This document shows, piece after piece, positions 2-10,541 of a stretch of DNA of 10,541 nt. The translations under genes and the position numbers were made by a program. The notes beneath the pieces are model-generated. The model was given only the letters and a program-made list of their open reading frames with translations. It was not told the origin of the DNA and searched no databases. The stretch is from contig JAJZUN010000057.1 in NCBI GenBank assembly GCA_021848555.1, positions 1 through 10,541 on the forward strand, read 5' to 3'. Each line of letters begins with the position of its first letter. Position 1 is the stretch's first letter. This stretch comes from Pseudomonadota bacterium (GTDB lineage: Bacteria; Pseudomonadota; Gammaproteobacteria; Burkholderiales; SG8-39).

Positions 2-658
2 GGGCCCCGCTACCTGATGGACCGCATCGTCCCCGGCTGCGTGGCCGGCGATCTGGAGCGCGCCGGGCTGGACGCCGTGCGCGCCGAGTGCGACGTACTG
101 GAGCGCGAAGTGCGCGTGCTCAAGGACATTTACGACGACCACTCCGGGCTGCAGGACCGGTTCCTCACCTGCGGCCGGCTCACCGCCAGCACCGCGGGCA
201 AACTGGGCGTGATCGGCCTCGCCGGGCGCGCCAGCAGCCAGCCATGGGATGCGCGCGTGCAGGCCAAGCCCGCCCCCTATGACGTGCTCGACGTGAGCAT
301 GAAAACCCACAAGAACGGCGACGTCGCCGCGCGCGTCATCCTGCGCTTCGACGAAATCTTCGAATCGCTGCGCCTCATGCGCGCGATCGTCGAGGGCATC
401 GCGCCGGGCGCGGTCGCGGCGCCGCTGCCCGCGGTGCCCGCCGGTCGCATCGGGCTGGGTTGGGCCGAAGGCTGGCGCGGCGAATCGGTGGTCGCGCTGG
501 AATCGGGCGCGGACGGCCGCGTGCGCAACTGCCATGCGCACGACCCTTCCTGGCAGAACTGGCCGGCGGTCGCATTCGCCGTGCACAACAACATCGTTCC
601 CGACTTTCCGCTGATCAACAAGTCGTTCAACCTGTCGTACTCCGGGTGCGATCTGTGA
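2..658 (+). CDS. Hyf/Nuo-like large subunit of an Ehr-type complex (5' truncated)
   Basis: This is the C-terminal 218 residues of a large subunit of the HyfG/HycE/NuoD (49 kDa) family. The frame is open from base 2, so the true start lies outside the window. Family features visible are the 'FLTCGRLTASTAG' stretch, the 'SMKTHKNGDVAARVILRFDE' stretch before the long helix, and the terminal 'IVPDFPLINKSFNLSYSGCDL' region cut here into 'DFPLINKSF' and 'NLSYSGCDL'. In true group 4 [NiFe] hydrogenases this last region carries DPCxxC, whose two cysteines bind Ni. Here the aligned residues are N-L-S-Y-S-G, so both ligand positions are replaced. This matches what is known of Ehr complexes and complex I, which lack the NiFe site. 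The N-terminal CxxC cannot be checked. The subunit would sit on the cytoplasmic face with the small subunit encoded downstream. Family assignment is firm; the electron donor is unknown. Confidence 0.85.
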   Translation, partial: GPRYLMDRIVPGCVAGDLERAGLDAVRAECDVLEREVRVLKDIYDDHSGLQDRFLTCGRLTASTAGKLGVIGLAGRASSQPWDARVQAKPAPYDVLDVSMKTHKNGDVAARVILRFDEIFESLRLMRAIVEGIAPGAVAAPLPAVPAGRIGLGWAEGWRGESVVALESGADGRVRNCHAHDPSWQNWPAVAFAVHNNIVPDFPLINKSFNLSYSGCDL

Positions 659-955: not shown

Positions 956-1474
956 ATGTACCAGCTGCTGAGACAAATCACCCGCGTCGGCATCAAGACC
1001 GAGGCGCCGCCGCAGGCGGACGAGACGCTGCGCGTGCTCGGCCAGAAACTGCAGCAGGAAATCCTGGGTCTGTTCGCCGGATCGCTCGCCATCCGCCATG
1101 TCGACGCCGGCTCCTGCAACGGCTGCGAACTCGAGATCCACATGCTCAACAATCCCTATTACAACATCGAGGGACTGGGCATCAAGCTGGTCGCCAGCCC
1201 GCGCCACGCCGACCTGCTGCTGGTGACCGGGCCGGTGGCGCGCAACATGGAGGAGGCGCTGAAGCGCACCTTCGACGCCATGCCCGCGCCCAAGCTGGTG
1301 GTGGCGGTCGGCGACTGCGGCTGCAGCGGGGGAATATTCGGCGAGAGCTATGCCAGCCGCGGCCGCGTGTCCAATGTCATCGCGGTGGATGTCGCCGTGC
1401 CCGGCTGCCCGCCGACGCCGGCCGCGTTGCTGCAGGGCATACTCACCGCGATCAGTTCCGGCGGCCGCGGCTGA
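956..1474 (+). CDS. Hyf/Nuo-like small (iron-sulfur) subunit
   Basis: A 172-residue protein of the NuoB/HycG/HyfI family, which carries the proximal [4Fe-4S] cluster that passes electrons to or from the large subunit. The ligand pattern is complete: C54 and C57 in 'GSCNGCELE', C121 in 'GDCGCSGG', and C151 in 'VPGCPPTP'. The spaced CxxC (not the tandem CC of complex I NuoB) places it on the hydrogenase-like side of the family. Length is normal for HycG/HyfI-type subunits, somewhat short of NuoB. The ATG at 956 is preceded by AGAAGGG about 14 bases upstream. It is separated from the large subunit gene by a 297-bp spacer with hairpins, which is unusual for genes of one complex. The intact cluster with a degenerate NiFe motif in its partner argues for an Ehr complex. 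An alternative name, HyfI, would overstate hydrogenase function. Confidence 0.88.
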   Translation: MYQLLRQITRVGIKTEAPPQADETLRVLGQKLQQEILGLFAGSLAIRHVDAGSCNGCELEIHMLNNPYYNIEGLGIKLVASPRHADLLLVTGPVARNMEEALKRTFDAMPAPKLVVAVGDCGCSGGIFGESYASRGRVSNVIAVDVAVPGCPPTPAALLQGILTAISSGGRG

Positions 1475-4348: not shown

Positions 4349-5227
4349 TTGGCAAACAACACCGCATTACGCTTGGTCCCAGGCCGGAGCGGGCAGCCGA
4401 TCCCGACCACCGCCGCGCGTCAGCCCGAAGAACCTGCGCTCATCAAGACCACCTGCTCCACCTGCAAGCTGCGCGAACTGTGCACGCCCTGTTGCGGCCT
4501 GAGCCGGTCCGAGATCAACGACTCCACCCGCCTGCTGTTCGCGCGCCTGCGCATACGGCGCGGCGAAAACCTGTACCTTGCCGGCGATCGCTTTACGTCC
4601 CTTTATGCGGTGCGCAAGGGCTTCCTCAAGACCACGGCCATACTGGCGAAGGGCCGCGACCAGGTGACGGGATTCTCGATGACGGGCGAGGTCCTGGGCA
4701 TGGACGGCATCGAGGCGCAAAGACATGGCTGCAATACGATCGCGCTGGAGGACGGCGAAATCTGCGCCATCTCCTTTGCCAGATTGCAGGAACTGACCCT
4801 CGCCATCCCCAGCCTGCAGCGCCACTTCCACGCCATGATGAGCCGCGAAATCGTGCGCGAACACGGCGTGATGCTGCTGCTCGGAAGCATGAGCGCCGAG
4901 GAGCGCATGACAATGTTCCTGCTCGATTTTTCCCGGCGTTTTGCCGCGCAGGGCGGCACGGCGTCGGAATTCAACCTGCGCCTGACGCGCGAGGACATCG
5001 GCAGCTACCTCAGCCTGACTGTCGGCACGGTCAGCCGCTTGTTCGCCAGGTTCCGTGAAAGCGGGCTGATCGCGGTGCGGCAGAAGCTGGTCCGCATCGT
5101 CGACCGGGGCAAGCTTGAATGTGTGATTGGCCGGTCAACGCGCTCAGGCACTGCTGCTACAACAGGAACCAAGAAACGCGAGTCGCATTGGACGCATTGC
5201 AACGACCGGGTTCGCTTTTCCAAATAG
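4349..5227 (+). CDS. FNR-type oxygen/redox-responsive Crp-family regulator
   Basis: A 292-residue cytoplasmic regulator. The N-terminal CxxCx5C (C36, C39, C45) plus a central cysteine (C139 in 'GEICAI') matches the four ligands of the oxygen-labile [4Fe-4S] cluster of E. coli FNR (C20, C23, C29, C122). A cyclic-nucleotide-like beta-roll, a long dimerisation helix (about 158-180) and a winged helix follow. The FNR-like stretches 'SAEERMTMFLLDFSRRFA' and 'LTREDIGSYL' are clear. The recognition helix reads V-G-T-V-S-R (225-230), with G226 in place of the glutamate of the usual E-x-x-S-R. The start is TTG at 4349 because GGAG lies six bases upstream and the next in-frame ATG comes only after the cysteine motif. 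It is about 40 residues longer than E. coli FNR, split between an N-terminal and a C-terminal tail. It is probably cotranscribed with the CZB gene 10 bases downstream, and its targets may include the neighbouring cytochrome genes, which is inference. Confidence 0.9.
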   Translation: MANNTALRLVPGRSGQPIPTTAARQPEEPALIKTTCSTCKLRELCTPCCGLSRSEINDSTRLLFARLRIRRGENLYLAGDRFTSLYAVRKGFLKTTAILAKGRDQVTGFSMTGEVLGMDGIEAQRHGCNTIALEDGEICAISFARLQELTLAIPSLQRHFHAMMSREIVREHGVMLLLGSMSAEERMTMFLLDFSRRFAAQGGTASEFNLRLTREDIGSYLSLTVGTVSRLFARFRESGLIAVRQKLVRIVDRGKLECVIGRSTRSGTAATTGTKKRESHWTHCNDRVRFSK

Positions 5228-5237
5228 TAGGTGCCAC

Positions 5238-5609
5238 ATGGCAACCATTGAAGAGCTTGACAAAGCGATTGGTGATCACGAGATGTGGAAATCACGACTC
5301 CAGCTGGCCATCGCCACAGGGGAGACCGATACGCCCGTTGAAACAATGCAGCAGGACGATCAATGTGCTTTCGGCAAGTGGCTGTACAGCCCCGCCCTCG
5401 CGTCAATCGACAAAGCGTCGATCCACTACCAGATGGTAAGAGTCATCCATGCCGAGTTCCACCAAAAAGCTGCTCACCTCGCCACACTGGTCCTGGATCG
5501 CAAGAAGGAAGAAGCCGCGAAAATGCTGGGTTATCATTATGGTGAATTTGCAGCAGTTTCTACCAGGCTCACACAGGCCTTGATGGAGTGGAAGAAGGTT
5601 CTAAGGTAG
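5238..5609 (+). CDS. Stand-alone CZB (chemoreceptor zinc-binding) domain protein
   Basis: A 123-residue soluble protein consisting almost wholly of a CZB domain. The signature Hxx[WFYL]...CxFGxW...HxxxH is complete: H14-x-x-W17, C43-A-F-G-K-W48, H71-x-x-x-H75, the four zinc ligands of the family. CZB domains usually sit at the end of chemoreceptors or diguanylate cyclases and sense zinc, or oxidants such as HOCl through the zinc-bound cysteine. Here there is no receptor or output domain. The ATG at 5238 is 10 bases after the regulator stop, preceded by a weak purine-rich site, which implies cotranscription and perhaps coupling. It may act as a zinc/redox sensing partner for the regulator or for a chemotaxis or c-di-GMP protein elsewhere. 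The domain call is firm; the role is open. Confidence 0.9.
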   Translation: MATIEELDKAIGDHEMWKSRLQLAIATGETDTPVETMQQDDQCAFGKWLYSPALASIDKASIHYQMVRVIHAEFHQKAAHLATLVLDRKKEEAAKMLGYHYGEFAAVSTRLTQALMEWKKVLR

Positions 5610-5677: not shown

Positions 5678-6229
5678 TTACCCCAGGAGCCTATTCAAGC
5701 TGTCCAGCGATTCCCGCAGGCGGCGCGGATCGCCGGCCCCGGACAGTTCCGCGTCCAACTGCGCTAGGTGTTCGCGAATCGAGGCAAGGCGCGAGCGCTC
5801 GCGCGCCCTCTGATCCTGCGCCAGCTCCAGCAGCCTGTGCCGCCCGTTCGATTGCGCATCCGCGGAAAAATCCAGCCTGCCGCTTTTGCCGACCAGGCTC
5901 ATGAAACTGCGCAGCAAGGAATTTACCTGCCTGCGCCAGATGCCGTCCGCGAGCAGCAGGGCCAGCACGTTCGCAATCAGGAATACGCTCAGGATCAGCG
6001 GCGCCTCCCGCATCAAGCCGAAAAACAGGGACTGGTCCTCGGCAAGATGCACCCGGAACAGATTGTTCTCGATGACCTGCCCCAGGCGCCAGTGCAGCAT
6101 CCAGACCATGCCCGCCACCAGCCCCGCCTCCAGCCCGACCAGCGCCACCAGCAGCCATTTCTGCAGCGTCTTGTCCACGTAGTGAATATGGCGCCGGTGG
6201 GCGGCAGGGCGTTGTGGCAACGGGGTCAT
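5678..6229 (-). CDS. Two-helix membrane protein with coiled-coil tail, cytochrome partner
   Basis: A 183-residue inner-membrane protein, last gene of a three-gene minus-strand operon. A basic N-terminus ('RPAAHRRHIHYVDKTLQKW') precedes TM1 (about 25-46), a roughly 30-residue loop, TM2 (about 78-98) and a charged, helical C-terminal region rich in R/E/Q/L (about 125-183) that looks like a coiled coil. This is the topology of a chemoreceptor without its signalling domain. Its ATG (6229-6227) overlaps the cytochrome stop as ATGA, which is why I chose it; an ATG at 6250 would add seven residues. Overall plan is shared with the first gene of the operon, so the two may form a pair. I recall similar 'R-R-x-x-Y-x-V-D-K-x-x-Q' proteins annotated as chemoreceptor-like near multiheme cytochromes, but no function is established from sequence here. 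Confidence 0.75.
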   Translation of the reverse strand: MTPLPQRPAAHRRHIHYVDKTLQKWLLVALVGLEAGLVAGMVWMLHWRLGQVIENNLFRVHLAEDQSLFFGLMREAPLILSVFLIANVLALLLADGIWRRQVNSLLRSFMSLVGKSGRLDFSADAQSNGRHRLLELAQDQRARERSRLASIREHLAQLDAELSGAGDPRRLRESLDSLNRLLG

Positions 6230-7011
6230 ATGTCGTGGCATTGAAAGCACAAGGCGGAGCCTTTATTGGACATAACCAGCTTGCCGTGATCCTTCCTGTA
6301 AGCCTGATGACAGGACACACAGCTGATTTTGCCATCGGGCAGCGGGATTTTTTTCGACAGCCTGCTCTCCGCGTGAAAGCCGCCGGACTTCGCCGACTCC
6401 CGATAACGCTTTCCGATGGGATGGTTGGCCTCGCCGCTGGCATGGCGCAGGATGCCGTCACGCCCGATGCTGACGCCGATGGCGTCCGTTTGGCCGCCAT
6501 GGCAGCCCATGCATTGCAAAGAATACGGATCGAGCTGGATGTTGGTCAACGCGATGCCTGGATGCAAATGCCCCGACTGTTCGATCGAAGCGCCCCGGTC
6601 TTTCATCTTTTCGAAAAACGCCGCGTCATGGCAGGACAGGCACATCTGCCTGCCGCGCTTGTCGCCGCGCAACAAGCCATGCTCGCTGGCGTGCACCAGG
6701 TGGCAGGTGCTGCAGGTCAAGTCCCCTTTCCAATCCGGGGGATATCCCGGCGGCAGGCTGCGCGCCGGCACAAAACCGCTGGGATGGCTCACCCGCACCG
6801 CGTTCGGATGGCATTTGCCGCACAAGGCTTCCTGCGAAGCCAGGAGCTGGGACGCCTGTTCCGGCTTCACCTCCTTGCCCGCCAGATGGCAACCGCCGCA
6901 GTCGATACCGCTCAAATGCGGTCTGGCGCCTAAAGCGGCATAAAGCAAAGCCGCGGCGAAGAACAGAGCCGCGCTGCCGCCGGCAAGCATAAGCCGTCTA
7001 CAACTTGACAC
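6226..7011 (-). CDS. Heptaheme c-type cytochrome, periplasmic and probably membrane-anchored
   Basis: A 261-residue protein with seven CXXCH heme-binding motifs starting at residues 38, 64, 100, 124, 167, 231 and 255 (CGGCH, CGKCH, CSTCH, CLSCH, CMGCH, CVSCH, CFQCH). A single hydrophobic N-terminal segment (about 8-28) acts as signal peptide or anchor; no clear signal peptidase site is seen. Motif pairs and many extra histidines (10 beyond the seven proximal ones) fit bis-histidine ligation and the doubled-CXXCH family. The start is GTG at 7011, with GGAGG nine bases upstream on the minus strand, overlapping the previous stop by 14 bases. It should carry electrons in the periplasm between the quinone pool or an inner-membrane donor and other cytochromes. 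It is not NrfH/NapC-like or an MtrA-type decaheme by motif count. Confidence 0.92.
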   Translation of the reverse strand: MSSCRRLMLAGGSAALFFAAALLYAALGARPHLSGIDCGGCHLAGKEVKPEQASQLLASQEALCGKCHPNAVRVSHPSGFVPARSLPPGYPPDWKGDLTCSTCHLVHASEHGLLRGDKRGRQMCLSCHDAAFFEKMKDRGASIEQSGHLHPGIALTNIQLDPYSLQCMGCHGGQTDAIGVSIGRDGILRHASGEANHPIGKRYRESAKSGGFHAESRLSKKIPLPDGKISCVSCHQAYRKDHGKLVMSNKGSALCFQCHDI

Positions 7012-7576
7012 GGCCTTCGACCTCCTTCAACCGCGCGACGGCTTGCCCCAGCGCAGCCTGGTCCGATGCCGCACCCGCGTGCAGCGACCGCTCGGTCTGC
7101 GCCACCGCCTGTCTCAGTTCGCTCGAATGCCGGCGCAACAAAGCGGTGCTCGCCTTGAATTCCTGCCACTCGCGCTGCAACTGATCGCCGCGGCGGATCG
7201 CGACCGGCTCGACCGGCCCTTGTTCGATTTCGATTTCCAGGTTGCGCGCGAACCGGTATAGCGGTCCCGCAATGCGGAAACTGCTGTAGAGCGCCACCAG
7301 CCAGGTGACCACGCAGGCCAGGGCGGTCAGCGCCAACCCGCAAACCAGCAGGGCGGGCCCCAGATTCTGGAATGCGTAACTGCGCTCGCTTATAAGCTGA
7401 CCGTAGCTCCCGCCTGGTTTATCCGCCAGCAGCATCAGCACTGCGAGCAAACCGGCGCACGCAAGCACACCGACGCTCAGCGCGATTTTCGCCACCATCT
7501 TCAGATGAAAAAACATCGGCGTGTCGCCAGCATTTGGCATCGGGTTCACGTTATTTTGAGAGCGGTTCAAGAGCAT
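6998..7576 (-). CDS. Two-helix membrane protein with HAMP-like linker, cytochrome partner
   Basis: A 192-residue inner-membrane protein, first gene of the minus-strand operon. TM1 is about 28-51, followed by a short periplasmic loop, then TM2 (about 75-97). The next stretch, 'SFRIAGPLYRFARNLE', resembles the entry of a HAMP domain with its conserved proline (P105), and a charged helical tail (about 125-190) follows. No methyl-accepting, kinase or cyclase domain is present, so any signalling would have to be by direct contact. The start is uncertain: ATG codons at 7576, 7540, 7516 and 7498 are all possible and none has a good ribosome binding site. I give the longest because the promoter at 7612-7641 places the transcript start just upstream of it. 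The stop overlaps the cytochrome start, so the operon is translationally coupled. It could shield, anchor or regulate the heptaheme cytochrome. Confidence 0.75.
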   Translation of the reverse strand: MLLNRSQNNVNPMPNAGDTPMFFHLKMVAKIALSVGVLACAGLLAVLMLLADKPGGSYGQLISERSYAFQNLGPALLVCGLALTALACVVTWLVALYSSFRIAGPLYRFARNLEIEIEQGPVEPVAIRRGDQLQREWQEFKASTALLRRHSSELRQAVAQTERSLHAGAASDQAALGQAVARLKEVEGRVKL

Positions 7577-7990: not shown

Positions 7991-9184
7991 ATGATGACGG
8001 CAGCTCGATATTCGGATGTAACGGCCGCAGGCGCGCTGGCGCAACCGCGGCTGAGCCGGCGCGCGCAGCGCGCGGGCAAACTGATCGCCCGGCTGTTCGC
8101 CCTGTGCGCCGTGCTCACCCTGGCCGCCTGCGGCGAAGTGCCGACGACGCCGGAAAGAAAAGCGCCGGAAGCGCAAGTGGTGTTCCCTTCGCCGCCCGAC
8201 GAACCCCGCTTCTATTACGAGCGCTCGCTCTACGGCAGTGCCGATGTGGTGCGCGGGGAAACCAATTCGACCATGCGCCAGTTGCTGACCGGCGAAGGGC
8301 CGAAAGCGGGCGAAGGCATGGGCAAGCCTTACGCCGTCGCGGTGCACCAGGGCCGGGTATACGTTTCCGATTCGGTACAGCGCTGGGTGACTGTGTTCGA
8401 TATTCCGAACCAGCGCTTCTACCGCATCGGCGACGAAGGCCCCGGGCAGTTGACCAAACCGCTGGGCCTGGACGTGGACCGCGCGGGCAACCTGTACGTG
8501 GCCGACGCGACCACCAAATCGGTGGTGATCTTCGATGCGGAGGGCAACTTCCTGCGCAAGCTCGGCGGCGAGAAATGGTTCGACCGCCTGAGCAGCGTCA
8601 CCATCGATCCCCGCGGCGACCGCCTTTACGTGGTGGACATCGGCGGCGTCAAATCGAACGAGCACCGGGTGCGGGTATTCGACCCGGTCAAGGGCACGCA
8701 TCTGTTCGATTTCGGCACGCGCGGCGCCGGCCCCGGCGAGTTCAACTTTCCCTACGACCTCGCCGTGGGCAAGGACGGCAAGCTCTACGTCGTTGACTCG
8801 GGAAATTTCCGCGTGCAGGTATTCGACCGCGACGGCAAATACCTCAGCACTTTCGGCAGCCTCGGCAGCCAGATCGGCAGCTTCGCGCGGCCCAAGGAAA
8901 TCGCGGCGGATGCGGACGGCAACCTGTACGTGATCGACGCGGTATTGGGCCATTTCCAGATCTTCGACCCGGACGGGACCCTGCTCCTGGCCATCGGCCA
9001 ACGCGCCGAGCAGGACGGCCCCGCGAAATTCATGCTGCCCTCGGGCATACACGTCGACGAGAACGGCAGAATCTACGTCGTGGACCAGTGGTTCCGGAAA
9101 ATCGATGTGTTCCGCCCGGCGAAACTGAAAGCGGACCAGGGTTTTCTCGCAGTAAAACCGCCATCCCCTCCAGCGAAACAATAA
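7991..9184 (+). CDS. NHL-repeat beta-propeller lipoprotein
   Basis: A 397-residue exported protein. A long, arginine-rich N-region precedes a hydrophobic stretch and a lipobox L-A-A-C with the lipidated cysteine at residue 47. The rest is a six-bladed propeller: the repeated pattern [RNK]-[LVI]-Y-V-x-D ... [VI]-x-[VI]-F-D ... G appears six times ('RVYVSD', 'NLYVAD', 'RLYVVD', 'KLYVVD', 'NLYVID', 'RIYVVD'). NHL propellers are non-catalytic scaffolds in most settings. Proteins of this kind, beginning with 'P-x-x-P-R-F-x-Y-E-R', are known from gene clusters of extracellular multiheme cytochromes, including the OmcS cluster of Geobacter as I recall. A role in cytochrome secretion or filament assembly is therefore plausible but inferred. 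The ATG at 7991 overlaps the stop of a nine-codon upstream frame (ATGA). It is followed after 269 bases by the tetraheme cytochrome gene. Confidence 0.9.
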   Translation: MMTAARYSDVTAAGALAQPRLSRRAQRAGKLIARLFALCAVLTLAACGEVPTTPERKAPEAQVVFPSPPDEPRFYYERSLYGSADVVRGETNSTMRQLLTGEGPKAGEGMGKPYAVAVHQGRVYVSDSVQRWVTVFDIPNQRFYRIGDEGPGQLTKPLGLDVDRAGNLYVADATTKSVVIFDAEGNFLRKLGGEKWFDRLSSVTIDPRGDRLYVVDIGGVKSNEHRVRVFDPVKGTHLFDFGTRGAGPGEFNFPYDLAVGKDGKLYVVDSGNFRVQVFDRDGKYLSTFGSLGSQIGSFARPKEIAADADGNLYVIDAVLGHFQIFDPDGTLLLAIGQRAEQDGPAKFMLPSGIHVDENGRIYVVDQWFRKIDVFRPAKLKADQGFLAVKPPSPPAKQ

Positions 9185-9272: not shown

Positions 9273-9453
9273 GACCTGGATCCGGCATCGGCTTTGACCT
9301 TCCTCAAGTAGCGAAAATGCGTTTCAGATGTAGGACCTACCCGCGCATGCTTCAGCAGAAGACATACGCGGCATGCTTCTTGCTCATTGTAAGGGCAGGA
9401 AGTGGATATACGGGTTTGGTACGCATTTTTCGTTCACAGCTAGGGAGAAGTAA

Positions 9454-10338
9454 ATGAAATCAAGAAAGTTTCTTCTGGGGGCCGCCTTAGTCCTCGCATC
9501 CTTGATGGCGCAGCAGGCAGTCGCCGCCATCGCCTTCAGTTTTACCAATAGCAGCATCAGGAACTCGAAGCACGATTTGAGTTCTTCGAGCACGACGACC
9601 GGACCCAAGGCTGCATCAACCGCAGCGGCAGCGGACGAAGTCTGCGTGTTCTGCCATACGCCGCACGGCGCGGATTTCGCCAAGGGTCCGCTGTGGAATC
9701 GCGGCGGGACGACGACCATCACCAATGCCTATTCCAACCCGGACACCATGGACAGCGCGGTGCTGGCCAGCTTCGCGACCTCGTCGGCCGCGTGCATGAC
9801 CTGCCATGACGGCTCGACCGCGCTGGACAACCTGATCAACGCTTCGGGCAGCGGCGGCTACACTGCCGGTGGTGTGTCGCGCAACTATGGCGCCGCGGGC
9901 GCCACGATGGGCCCGATCGCCGCAGGGGTGACCGCCATTACCGGCGACCTGCGCGACGACCATCCGATCGGCGTCGCCTATTGCGGCGGCTTCCTCGGCG
10001 GCACCGGCGGCTGCGTGGACAGCGATTTCGTCGTCGCCGCCAACAGCGGCCAGACCGTCGCCGCGCTGGTCAAGAACGGCACCGCCGGCGCGACCGCCGC
10101 GGTGAATTCCACGGTCGCCACCGACAAGTACTGGATCGACACCGACGGCACGACCACCTCGAGGTCGAAGCAGGATCTGACGCTGTTCGTGCGCGCTTTC
10201 ACCCAGACCGTCAATTCCGGCAACCAGCCCGCGGTGGAATGCGCCAGCTGCCACGACGTGCATAACTCGGGCAACGGCACCTTCCTGCGCGTCAGCAACC
10301 TCAAGAGCGCGCTGTGCTTCGCCTGCCATAACAAATAG
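9454..10338 (+). CDS. Secreted tetraheme c-type cytochrome, OmcE-like
   Basis: A 294-residue exported cytochrome with a classical signal peptide (cleavage probably after 'AVAA', near residue 25). Four CXXCH motifs start at residues 64 (CVFCH), 114 (CMTCH), 263 (CASCH) and 288 (CFACH). The protein has exactly eight histidines: the four proximal ones plus H40, H71, H170 and H270, precisely enough for four bis-histidine hemes. Conserved-looking blocks 'NSKHDLSSS', 'CHTPHGA', 'PLWNR', 'CHDGS', 'LRDDHPIG' and 'VECASCHDVHN' are those I recall from the OmcE/OmcX-type family of extracellular cytochromes. The region between motifs 2 and 3 is long, rich in G, A, S and T, and has two extra cysteines (C177, C187) that may form a disulfide. 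AGGGAG lies six bases before the ATG, and a strong terminator follows. It is probably an extracellular electron conduit, possibly a filament subunit; filament formation is inference. Confidence 0.9.
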   Translation: MKSRKFLLGAALVLASLMAQQAVAAIAFSFTNSSIRNSKHDLSSSSTTTGPKAASTAAAADEVCVFCHTPHGADFAKGPLWNRGGTTTITNAYSNPDTMDSAVLASFATSSAACMTCHDGSTALDNLINASGSGGYTAGGVSRNYGAAGATMGPIAAGVTAITGDLRDDHPIGVAYCGGFLGGTGGCVDSDFVVAANSGQTVAALVKNGTAGATAAVNSTVATDKYWIDTDGTTTSRSKQDLTLFVRAFTQTVNSGNQPAVECASCHDVHNSGNGTFLRVSNLKSALCFACHNK

Positions 10339-10381
10339 TCGTCCTGGCCTCAACCTCTCCAGGCAGGGCCTAGCAGTATAG

Positions 10382-10414
10382 AAGGGCCAGGCGCAAGCGC
10401 TGGCCCTTTTTTTT
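10382..10414 (+). terminator. Rho-independent terminator after the tetraheme cytochrome
   Basis: AAGGGCCAG (10382-10390) and CTGGCCCTT (10400-10408) form a 9-bp perfect stem around a 9-base loop, running into eight Ts (10407-10414). This is a textbook intrinsic terminator, 44 bases after the cytochrome stop and only 14 bases before the next ATG. Confidence 0.9.
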
Positions 10415-10428
10415 GGGGTATCGCTTCA

Positions 10429-10541
10429 ATGAAAAATCCAGGCAGAAGGTGGATTGCCGTCCTTGCTTTGCTCGCCGTAGCCGGAGCCGCCTGCGGCGCC
10501 GAAGCGCCGCAGGCAACGAGCGGGGGCGCGGAACCGGCGTT
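10429..10541 (+). CDS. Start of an exported protein (3' truncated by window end)
   Basis: Only the first 37 residues are visible: a basic start (M-K-N-P-G-R-R-W), a hydrophobic core (about 9-20) and A-G-A-A-C-G, either a lipobox-like site (cysteine 22) or a Sec cleavage region, then a small-residue and proline-containing linker. GGGG lies 10 bases before the ATG. In related cytochrome clusters the next gene is often a peptidyl-prolyl isomerase, a TPR protein or another cytochrome, but none can be identified here. Its position after a strong terminator implies read-through or a promoter inside the short gap. Confidence 0.65.
   Translation, partial: MKNPGRRWIAVLALLAVAGAACGAEAPQATSGGAEPA

Follow-up and report, generated by a model that had tools for sequence, protein, structure and literature searches.

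The OmcE filament of Geobacter is built of subunits in which one heme takes a histidine from the neighbouring subunit (PMC9473688, PMC12954529). Homologues of OmcE throughout bacteria and archaea have already been published (PMC12307469), and whether it conducts in cells is contested (PMC11077965, versus work cited in PMC12307469). The undecaheme electron transfer (Uet) system is known from cathode-oxidising Tenderiales and iron-oxidising Gallionella (PMC12575090, PMC10734462); its genes, uetABCDEFGHIJ, were named as an electron-uptake cluster, uptake being the published proposal for the direction of electron flow (PMC12575090). As described for Tenderia and Gallionella, the set comprises UetA, called an extracellular tetraheme, the peptidyl-prolyl isomerase (PPIase) UetB, the porin UetC, the trihemes UetD, UetE and UetG, the NHL proteins UetH and UetI, and the undecaheme UetJ (PMC10734462). 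In Geoalkalibacter an OmcE homologue shares its locus with two NHL proteins (PMC12016550). The window analysed here, a stretch of 10,541 nucleotides (contig JAJZUN010000057.1 of a Burkholderiales bacterium, assembly GCA_021848555.1), carries a gene for a tetraheme c cytochrome which we consider most likely to be the uetA of a Uet locus for extracellular electron transfer and, taken jointly with this, to encode an OmcE-type filament subunit, predicted to be secreted and to have the OmcE fold. As a nanowire candidate from a known family it appears good but unproven.

The open reading frame (ORF) of this gene is preceded by AGGGAG at 9442-9447 and has 84% G+C at third codon positions (GC3), and the N-terminus of its product is signal-peptide-like, without a lipobox as judged by eye. 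The translation contains four CXXCH motifs, starting at residues 64, 114, 263 and 288, and eight histidines in all (40, 68, 71, 118, 170, 267, 270 and 292), which bears out the preliminary description of this DNA, where four motifs with four further histidines and no more had been counted; the only cysteines outside the motifs are 177 and 187, out of ten. A homologue search with the window protein gave at least 444 proteins at E ≤1e-3 among 7,990 scored candidates. We listed 120 of these, the window's own protein among them. The window protein also led to 43 genome loci, and proteins of 20 of these were aligned with the 120 (alignment A1, 140 rows). Each of the 120 carries four CXXCH, the closest other homologue among the matches listed has 82% identity, and eight of the ten listed with an organism name belong to Betaproteobacteria, so that the host is probably a betaproteobacterium. 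Seven of the eight histidines are present in every row of the alignment and H270 in 139, a pattern beyond chance, and this conservation suggests heme attachment through the CXXCH motifs with bis-His ligation. To have exactly eight histidines is typical of the aligned proteins and not unusual, because stray histidines are very rare (53 non-ligand histidines among 29,824 positions in the first 120 rows); counted from the residue-30 column on, exactly eight are found in 93 of the 140 rows and 9 to 11 in the remaining 47.

The protein matches OmcE (PDB 7TFS) with E 1.5e-22 and 9YUQ, its closest solved relative by sequence, with E 2.6e-27. The predicted monomer, a model of middling confidence overall, has the OmcE fold according to Foldseek, among whose matches (library to 2026-04-08) 9YUQ was absent. 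The proposed kinship to OmcE is thus borne out in sequence and in predicted fold, and the homology comparison gave as credible solved relatives only OmcE and 9YUQ. A plain soluble cytochrome c3/c7 was rejected for this reason, and also because Pfam and NCBIfam give only a general paired-CXXCH model above cut-off. The PCC3 porin-cytochrome system was rejected by its description, which includes a conserved inner-membrane protein and cytochromes far more heme-rich (median 34 and 21 heme sites); the term NHL is not used in the available part of that text (PMC5566968). Most of the 43 loci are labelled Beta-, Alpha- or Gammaproteobacteria, in line with the setting outside Geobacter that had been supposed. 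The nanowire reading of the preliminary description therefore keeps its OmcE kinship and its non-Geobacter hosts and loses its novelty, as both the homologues (PMC12307469) and UetA (PMC10734462) are in print.

Seventeen UetA-type loci were examined (L001-L015, L017 and L038; L003 and L013 are outside the tree described below). An NHL homologue is situated upstream of uetA, at up to about 1.2 kb, in 16 of the 16 loci with upstream DNA (on the opposite strand in L014), a PPIase gene lies 3' of uetA in 16 of 17, in three of them with a second uetA copy in between, and a large non-heme gene follows the PPIase gene wherever there is enough DNA (14/14). Farther downstream, as far as the DNA reaches, the loci continue with trihemes, proteins of TPR type or related to them, NHL proteins and an OmcE-related multi-heme gene. 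The set agrees with the published Uet cluster (PMC10734462), which is proposed to move electrons through the outer membrane, and the relatives of the window gene are its uetA, an identity absent from the preliminary description. Pfam identifies the PPIase and the c7-type trihemes, and the triheme domain is nanowire_3heme by NCBIfam. From this gene order in relatives, the reading frame that starts behind uetA in the window is probably uetB. A tandem second uetA copy ahead of uetB was seen in L008, L010 and L017, all Kiloniellaceae. Five other loci (L018, L020, L028, L029 and L033), from Bacteroidota, Myxococcota, an alphaproteobacterium and Woeseiaceae, have NHL, OmcE-like tetraheme and undecaheme-type genes but, within the stretch examined, no detected homologue of UetB or UetC, and possibly represent a second lineage of the same idea.

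A maximum-likelihood tree with midpoint root was calculated from 56 hand-chosen rows (the window protein, two PDB sequences, 14 of the 119 other listed homologues, 32 tetraheme proteins of the loci and seven of the eleven UetJ parts treated below). The window protein falls within a UetA group of 32 rows, supported at 100/96. The loci of this group carry the labels Beta-, Gamma- or Alphaproteobacteria, Proteobacteria, or orders and families inside them; OmcE, 9YUQ, Desulfuromonadales proteins and the UetJ parts are on the opposite side. The distance from the DHP motif to the third CXXCH is 70 to 101 residues in the UetA group and 32 to 55 on the OmcE side, except for L043 (70); on that side no DHP was detected in L020 and L028. 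A new observation is that the UetA group has a longer insert with either no or two cysteines and never one. In the 140-row alignment 89 rows have two cysteines between H170 and C263 and the other 51 lack them, and the pair occurs only where this stretch is long. This all-or-none occurrence suggests a disulfide. A long G/A/S/T-rich insert with two extra cysteines had been put forward as a distinguishing trait; its length stands, and so do the cysteines, although these are common to many relatives, but the richness does not, since G/A/S/T content is 47% in residues 171-262 and 48% in the mature protein. The monomer model predicts the stretch largely as strands, with fair confidence.

In the copies tested, neither Pfam nor NCBIfam matches the large gene of the relatives, UetC. 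Its model from a 16-sequence alignment is confident (86.4) and has 28 long strands. The top rows of the fold search with Foldseek were general outer-membrane barrels with large root-mean-square deviation; chain B of the Mtr complex (6r2q_B), which we take to be MtrB, was at rank 9 with the highest TMq (0.43) among the 50 rows listed. We regard UetC as a predicted 28-strand beta-barrel and do not claim a specific kinship to MtrB. The UetJ-type proteins examined (n=11, with 10 to 12 CXXCH, that of L011 being cut at the locus end) are matched in their first four-heme part by the UetA-family profile, with whole-protein E values from 7e-34 to 2e-51. This part has HN/HD-L in 11/11, CXXCHxPH at site 1 in 10/11, DHP in 10/11 (L033a is without the latter two) and a further CXXCHxxH in 11/11, and the UetJ of L024 matches 7TFS over residues 7-227 with E 2e-22. 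That the first four-heme part of UetJ is OmcE-like, judged from its sequence, is new here, and it is because of this likeness that we propose UetJ as a filament base with which UetA can stack.

Directly behind uetA the window has a hairpin with a T run that resembles an intrinsic terminator (Table 1). The fold energy of 10370-10425 is -24.4 kcal/mol (z -2.8, equalled in 1 of 200 shuffles); a consensus terminator scan did not list the hairpin. With one scanner, a terminator site was found at 12 of 23 UetA-type gene ends, whereas genes of ten other classes from these loci had one at 2 of 121 ends and random segments in 5 of 380 cases. The corresponding Fisher value is 1e-9 with the relatedness of the loci ignored, and the counts are not independent because the loci are related: the stems of L001, L003, L004 and L005 are nearly one stem and that of L012 is close to that of L013, while those of the window, L006, L007, L012, L014 and L015 are mutually different. 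When the uetA ends of the 17 loci and of the window were tested (n=18), the site was strong in 11, weak in one and lacking in six. A terminator is thus commonly found after uetA, which is new here and fits, as expected, a subunit made in excess.

The window also has a palindrome of Crp/FNR type before uetA. In 17 sources (282 kb) four of the seven exact TTGA-N6-TCAA sites lie within 500 bp before uetA (binomial 7e-5), and 13 of the 17 sources are without an exact palindrome there. The best palindrome near uetA has at least 8 of 10 matches in 8 of the 17 sources and 6 or 7 in nine (L001-L007, L011 and L015); 11 sites near uetA score at least 8, where 3.5 are expected (p 0.001). An FNR-type palindrome before uetA is not general among the sources. 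The window has a gene for an FNR-type regulator, with a homologue near uetA in L008, L009, L010 and L017, all of which are labelled Kiloniellaceae or Alphaproteobacteria.

Table 1. Positions of features in the window.
Feature	Position	Strand	Evidence or remark
uetA-like gene, OmcE-type tetraheme c cytochrome	9454..10338	+	ATG start, 294 aa
Sec signal peptide, probable	9454..9525	+	residues 1-24, end AVA; read from translation by eye
H40, distal heme ligand candidate	9571..9573	+	140/140 rows
CVFCHTPH, heme site 1 (residues 64-68) and H71, distal ligand candidate	9643..9666	+	C64, C67, H68, H71 in 140/140 rows
CMTCH, heme site 2 (residues 114-118)	9793..9807	+	C114, C117, H118 in 140/140 rows
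H170 within DHP, distal ligand candidate	9961..9963	+	140/140 rows
Long stretch from H170 to heme site 3, with C177 and C187	9964..10239	+	94 residues from DHP to third CXXCH; Cys 0 or 2 in 140/140 rows
CASCHDVH, heme site 3 (residues 263-267) and H270, distal ligand candidate	10240..10263	+	C263, C266, H267 in 140/140 rows, H270 in 139
CFACH, heme site 4 (residues 288-292)	10315..10329	+	C288, C291, H292 in 140/140 rows
Intrinsic-terminator-like hairpin with T run, directly 3' of uetA	10380..10410	+	folding and terminator scan
Next gene, start only (37 residues), by position probably uetB (PPIase)	10429..10541	+	signal-peptide-like start; cut at window end
TTGA-N6-TCAA palindrome, Crp/FNR type	9294..9307	+	sole exact match in window, 0.05 expected; 160 bp before uetA
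NHL beta-propeller gene, upstream of uetA	7991..9184	+	Pfam NHL 4.7e-26; lipobox-like LAAC near N-terminus (by eye)
FNR-type regulator gene	4349..5227	+	
CZB (chemoreceptor zinc-binding) domain protein	5127..5609	+	
Seven-CXXCH cytochrome	6226..7011	-	
Small ORF, read as membrane protein	6998..7576	-	no Pfam match at E 0.01
Small ORF, read as membrane protein	5678..6250	-	no Pfam match at E 0.01
NuoD-like gene	17..658	+	Complex1_49kDa
NuoB-like gene	956..1474	+	Oxidored_q6

As an OmcE-type filament subunit, UetA would be secreted to the cell exterior, where subunits would join head to tail, with one distal histidine completing the heme of the adjacent subunit as in OmcE and the hemes of the polymer forming a continuous chain. 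The composition of the cluster suggests that the UetC barrel, the periplasmic trihemes and the 11-heme UetJ may link this chain to the periplasm, and the terminator behind uetA would keep uetA mRNA above the mRNA of the downstream genes, giving an excess of subunits. Several points weigh against this explanation. UetA forms a supported group (100/96) apart from OmcE and 9YUQ, its longer insert could alter or block the filament interface, and model confidence is low at residues 53-75, 77-86 and 120-161. The window ends before uetB is identifiable, and of the cluster it includes no more than uetA, the NHL gene before it and the first 37 codons of the gene behind. The terminator is lacking at the uetA ends of L002, L008, L009, L011, L017 and L038, weak in L010, and lacking at all four tandem uetA-uetA junctions tested.

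UetA may instead be a tetraheme carrier, monomeric or in short oligomers and periplasmic or loosely surface-bound, with the OmcE fold but without long filaments. No evidence that UetA polymerises was found, its group has 70 to 101 residues in place of the 53 of OmcE, and in the available part of the text that calls UetA an extracellular tetraheme the word filament does not occur (PMC10734462). We nevertheless think such a carrier unlikely, as the credible relatives of solved structure are limited to OmcE, which is a filament, and 9YUQ, an entry of 16 chains; the UetA group keeps all ligands, including the one that OmcE takes from its neighbour, save H270 in one row; and the terminator pattern is in keeping with a protein of which an excess is needed. 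It is also conceivable that one or a few UetA subunits form only a stub or cap at the cell surface, stacked on the first, OmcE-like part of UetJ, since that part keeps the OmcE-type blocks (in 10-11 of 11), matches 7TFS (E 2e-22) and is encoded in the same cluster as UetA; this would leave unexplained that uetA alone of eleven gene classes is commonly followed by a terminator, and we hold it to be very improbable. The direction of electron flow is a separate matter, compatible with the filament reading. The regulator gene at 4349-5227 and the Crp/FNR-type palindrome suggest low-oxygen control, and undecaheme cytochromes are mentioned for a manganese-reducing Dechloromonas (PMC13264449), so that export of electrons in respiration of Fe(III), Mn or humics, with no uptake, is a serious possibility; with Uet described from cathode-oxidising Tenderiales and iron-oxidising Gallionella (PMC12575090, PMC10734462), we lean somewhat against it. 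The filament reading can be extended to a complete nanowire machine, in which UetJ would be the base for the UetA polymer with one heme chain from filament to conduit, the UetC barrel would house the base or be the exit port, the NHL proteins and PPIase would serve assembly and the terminator would set the subunit excess; this extension is tentative and rather doubtful.

The ORF of the seven-CXXCH cytochrome overlaps both small ORFs in Table 1. It has 308 homologues at E ≤1e-3, some of them named Sulfuritalea, Sulfuricella, Sterolibacterium or Gallionellaceae; L008, L009, L010 and L017 have homologues next to their uet clusters, and further homologues occur in L042 and L043. The NuoD-like and NuoB-like genes perhaps belong to a group 4 hydrogenase-like complex, and both have homologues in L002 (a Burkholderiales metagenome-assembled genome), some 8 kb before uetA. 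The CZB protein gene comes after that of the FNR-type regulator, and the two mechanically called ORFs overlap.

Proteins of the UetA kind have been described twice, once under the name UetA and once as homologues of OmcE from other prokaryotes. What is added here is the link between UetA/Uet and OmcE, together with the likeness of one part of UetJ to OmcE and the terminator that follows uetA. Among the literature matches listed, which did not cover the Uet source paper, no text tying UetA or Uet to OmcE or filaments was found. The link joins the Uet pathway, proposed for electrode- and iron-oxidising bacteria, with the Geobacter filaments made of the cytochrome OmcE. Were UetA to polymerise, the Uet-bearing Proteobacteria would be nanowire makers, and a single gene cluster would form a compact system for testing the anchoring and secretion of a cytochrome filament, processes termed speculative for OmcS (PMC12307469). 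Should the complete machine prove true, it would answer a question still open for Geobacter, namely how the outer membrane anchors a cytochrome filament and is wired to it.

The window protein can be compared with the known systems. Like OmcE of Geobacter sulfurreducens (7TFS), it has four CXXCH and four distal histidines in the same order; unlike OmcE, it has its DHP and third CXXCH 94 residues apart instead of 53, ten cysteines instead of eight, a separate group in the tree, and relatives whose neighbours are those of the Uet cluster. The 'Putative multiheme cytochrome c' 9YUQ has the same ligand order, whereas its DHP-to-third-CXXCH distance is only 44, it has eight cysteines and it is on the OmcE/UetJ side of the tree. 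UetJ resembles the window protein in that its first four-heme part is OmcE-like, and differs in its seven additional hemes, its place apart in the tree and a DHP-to-third-CXXCH distance of only 32 to 53 (seven examined). With UetA of Ca. Tenderia and Gallionella, likened by cluster description only, the agreement lies in a tetraheme gene followed, in the relatives, by PPIase, porin, triheme, NHL and undecaheme genes, and the difference in a further NHL gene upstream of uetA, both here and in the relatives.
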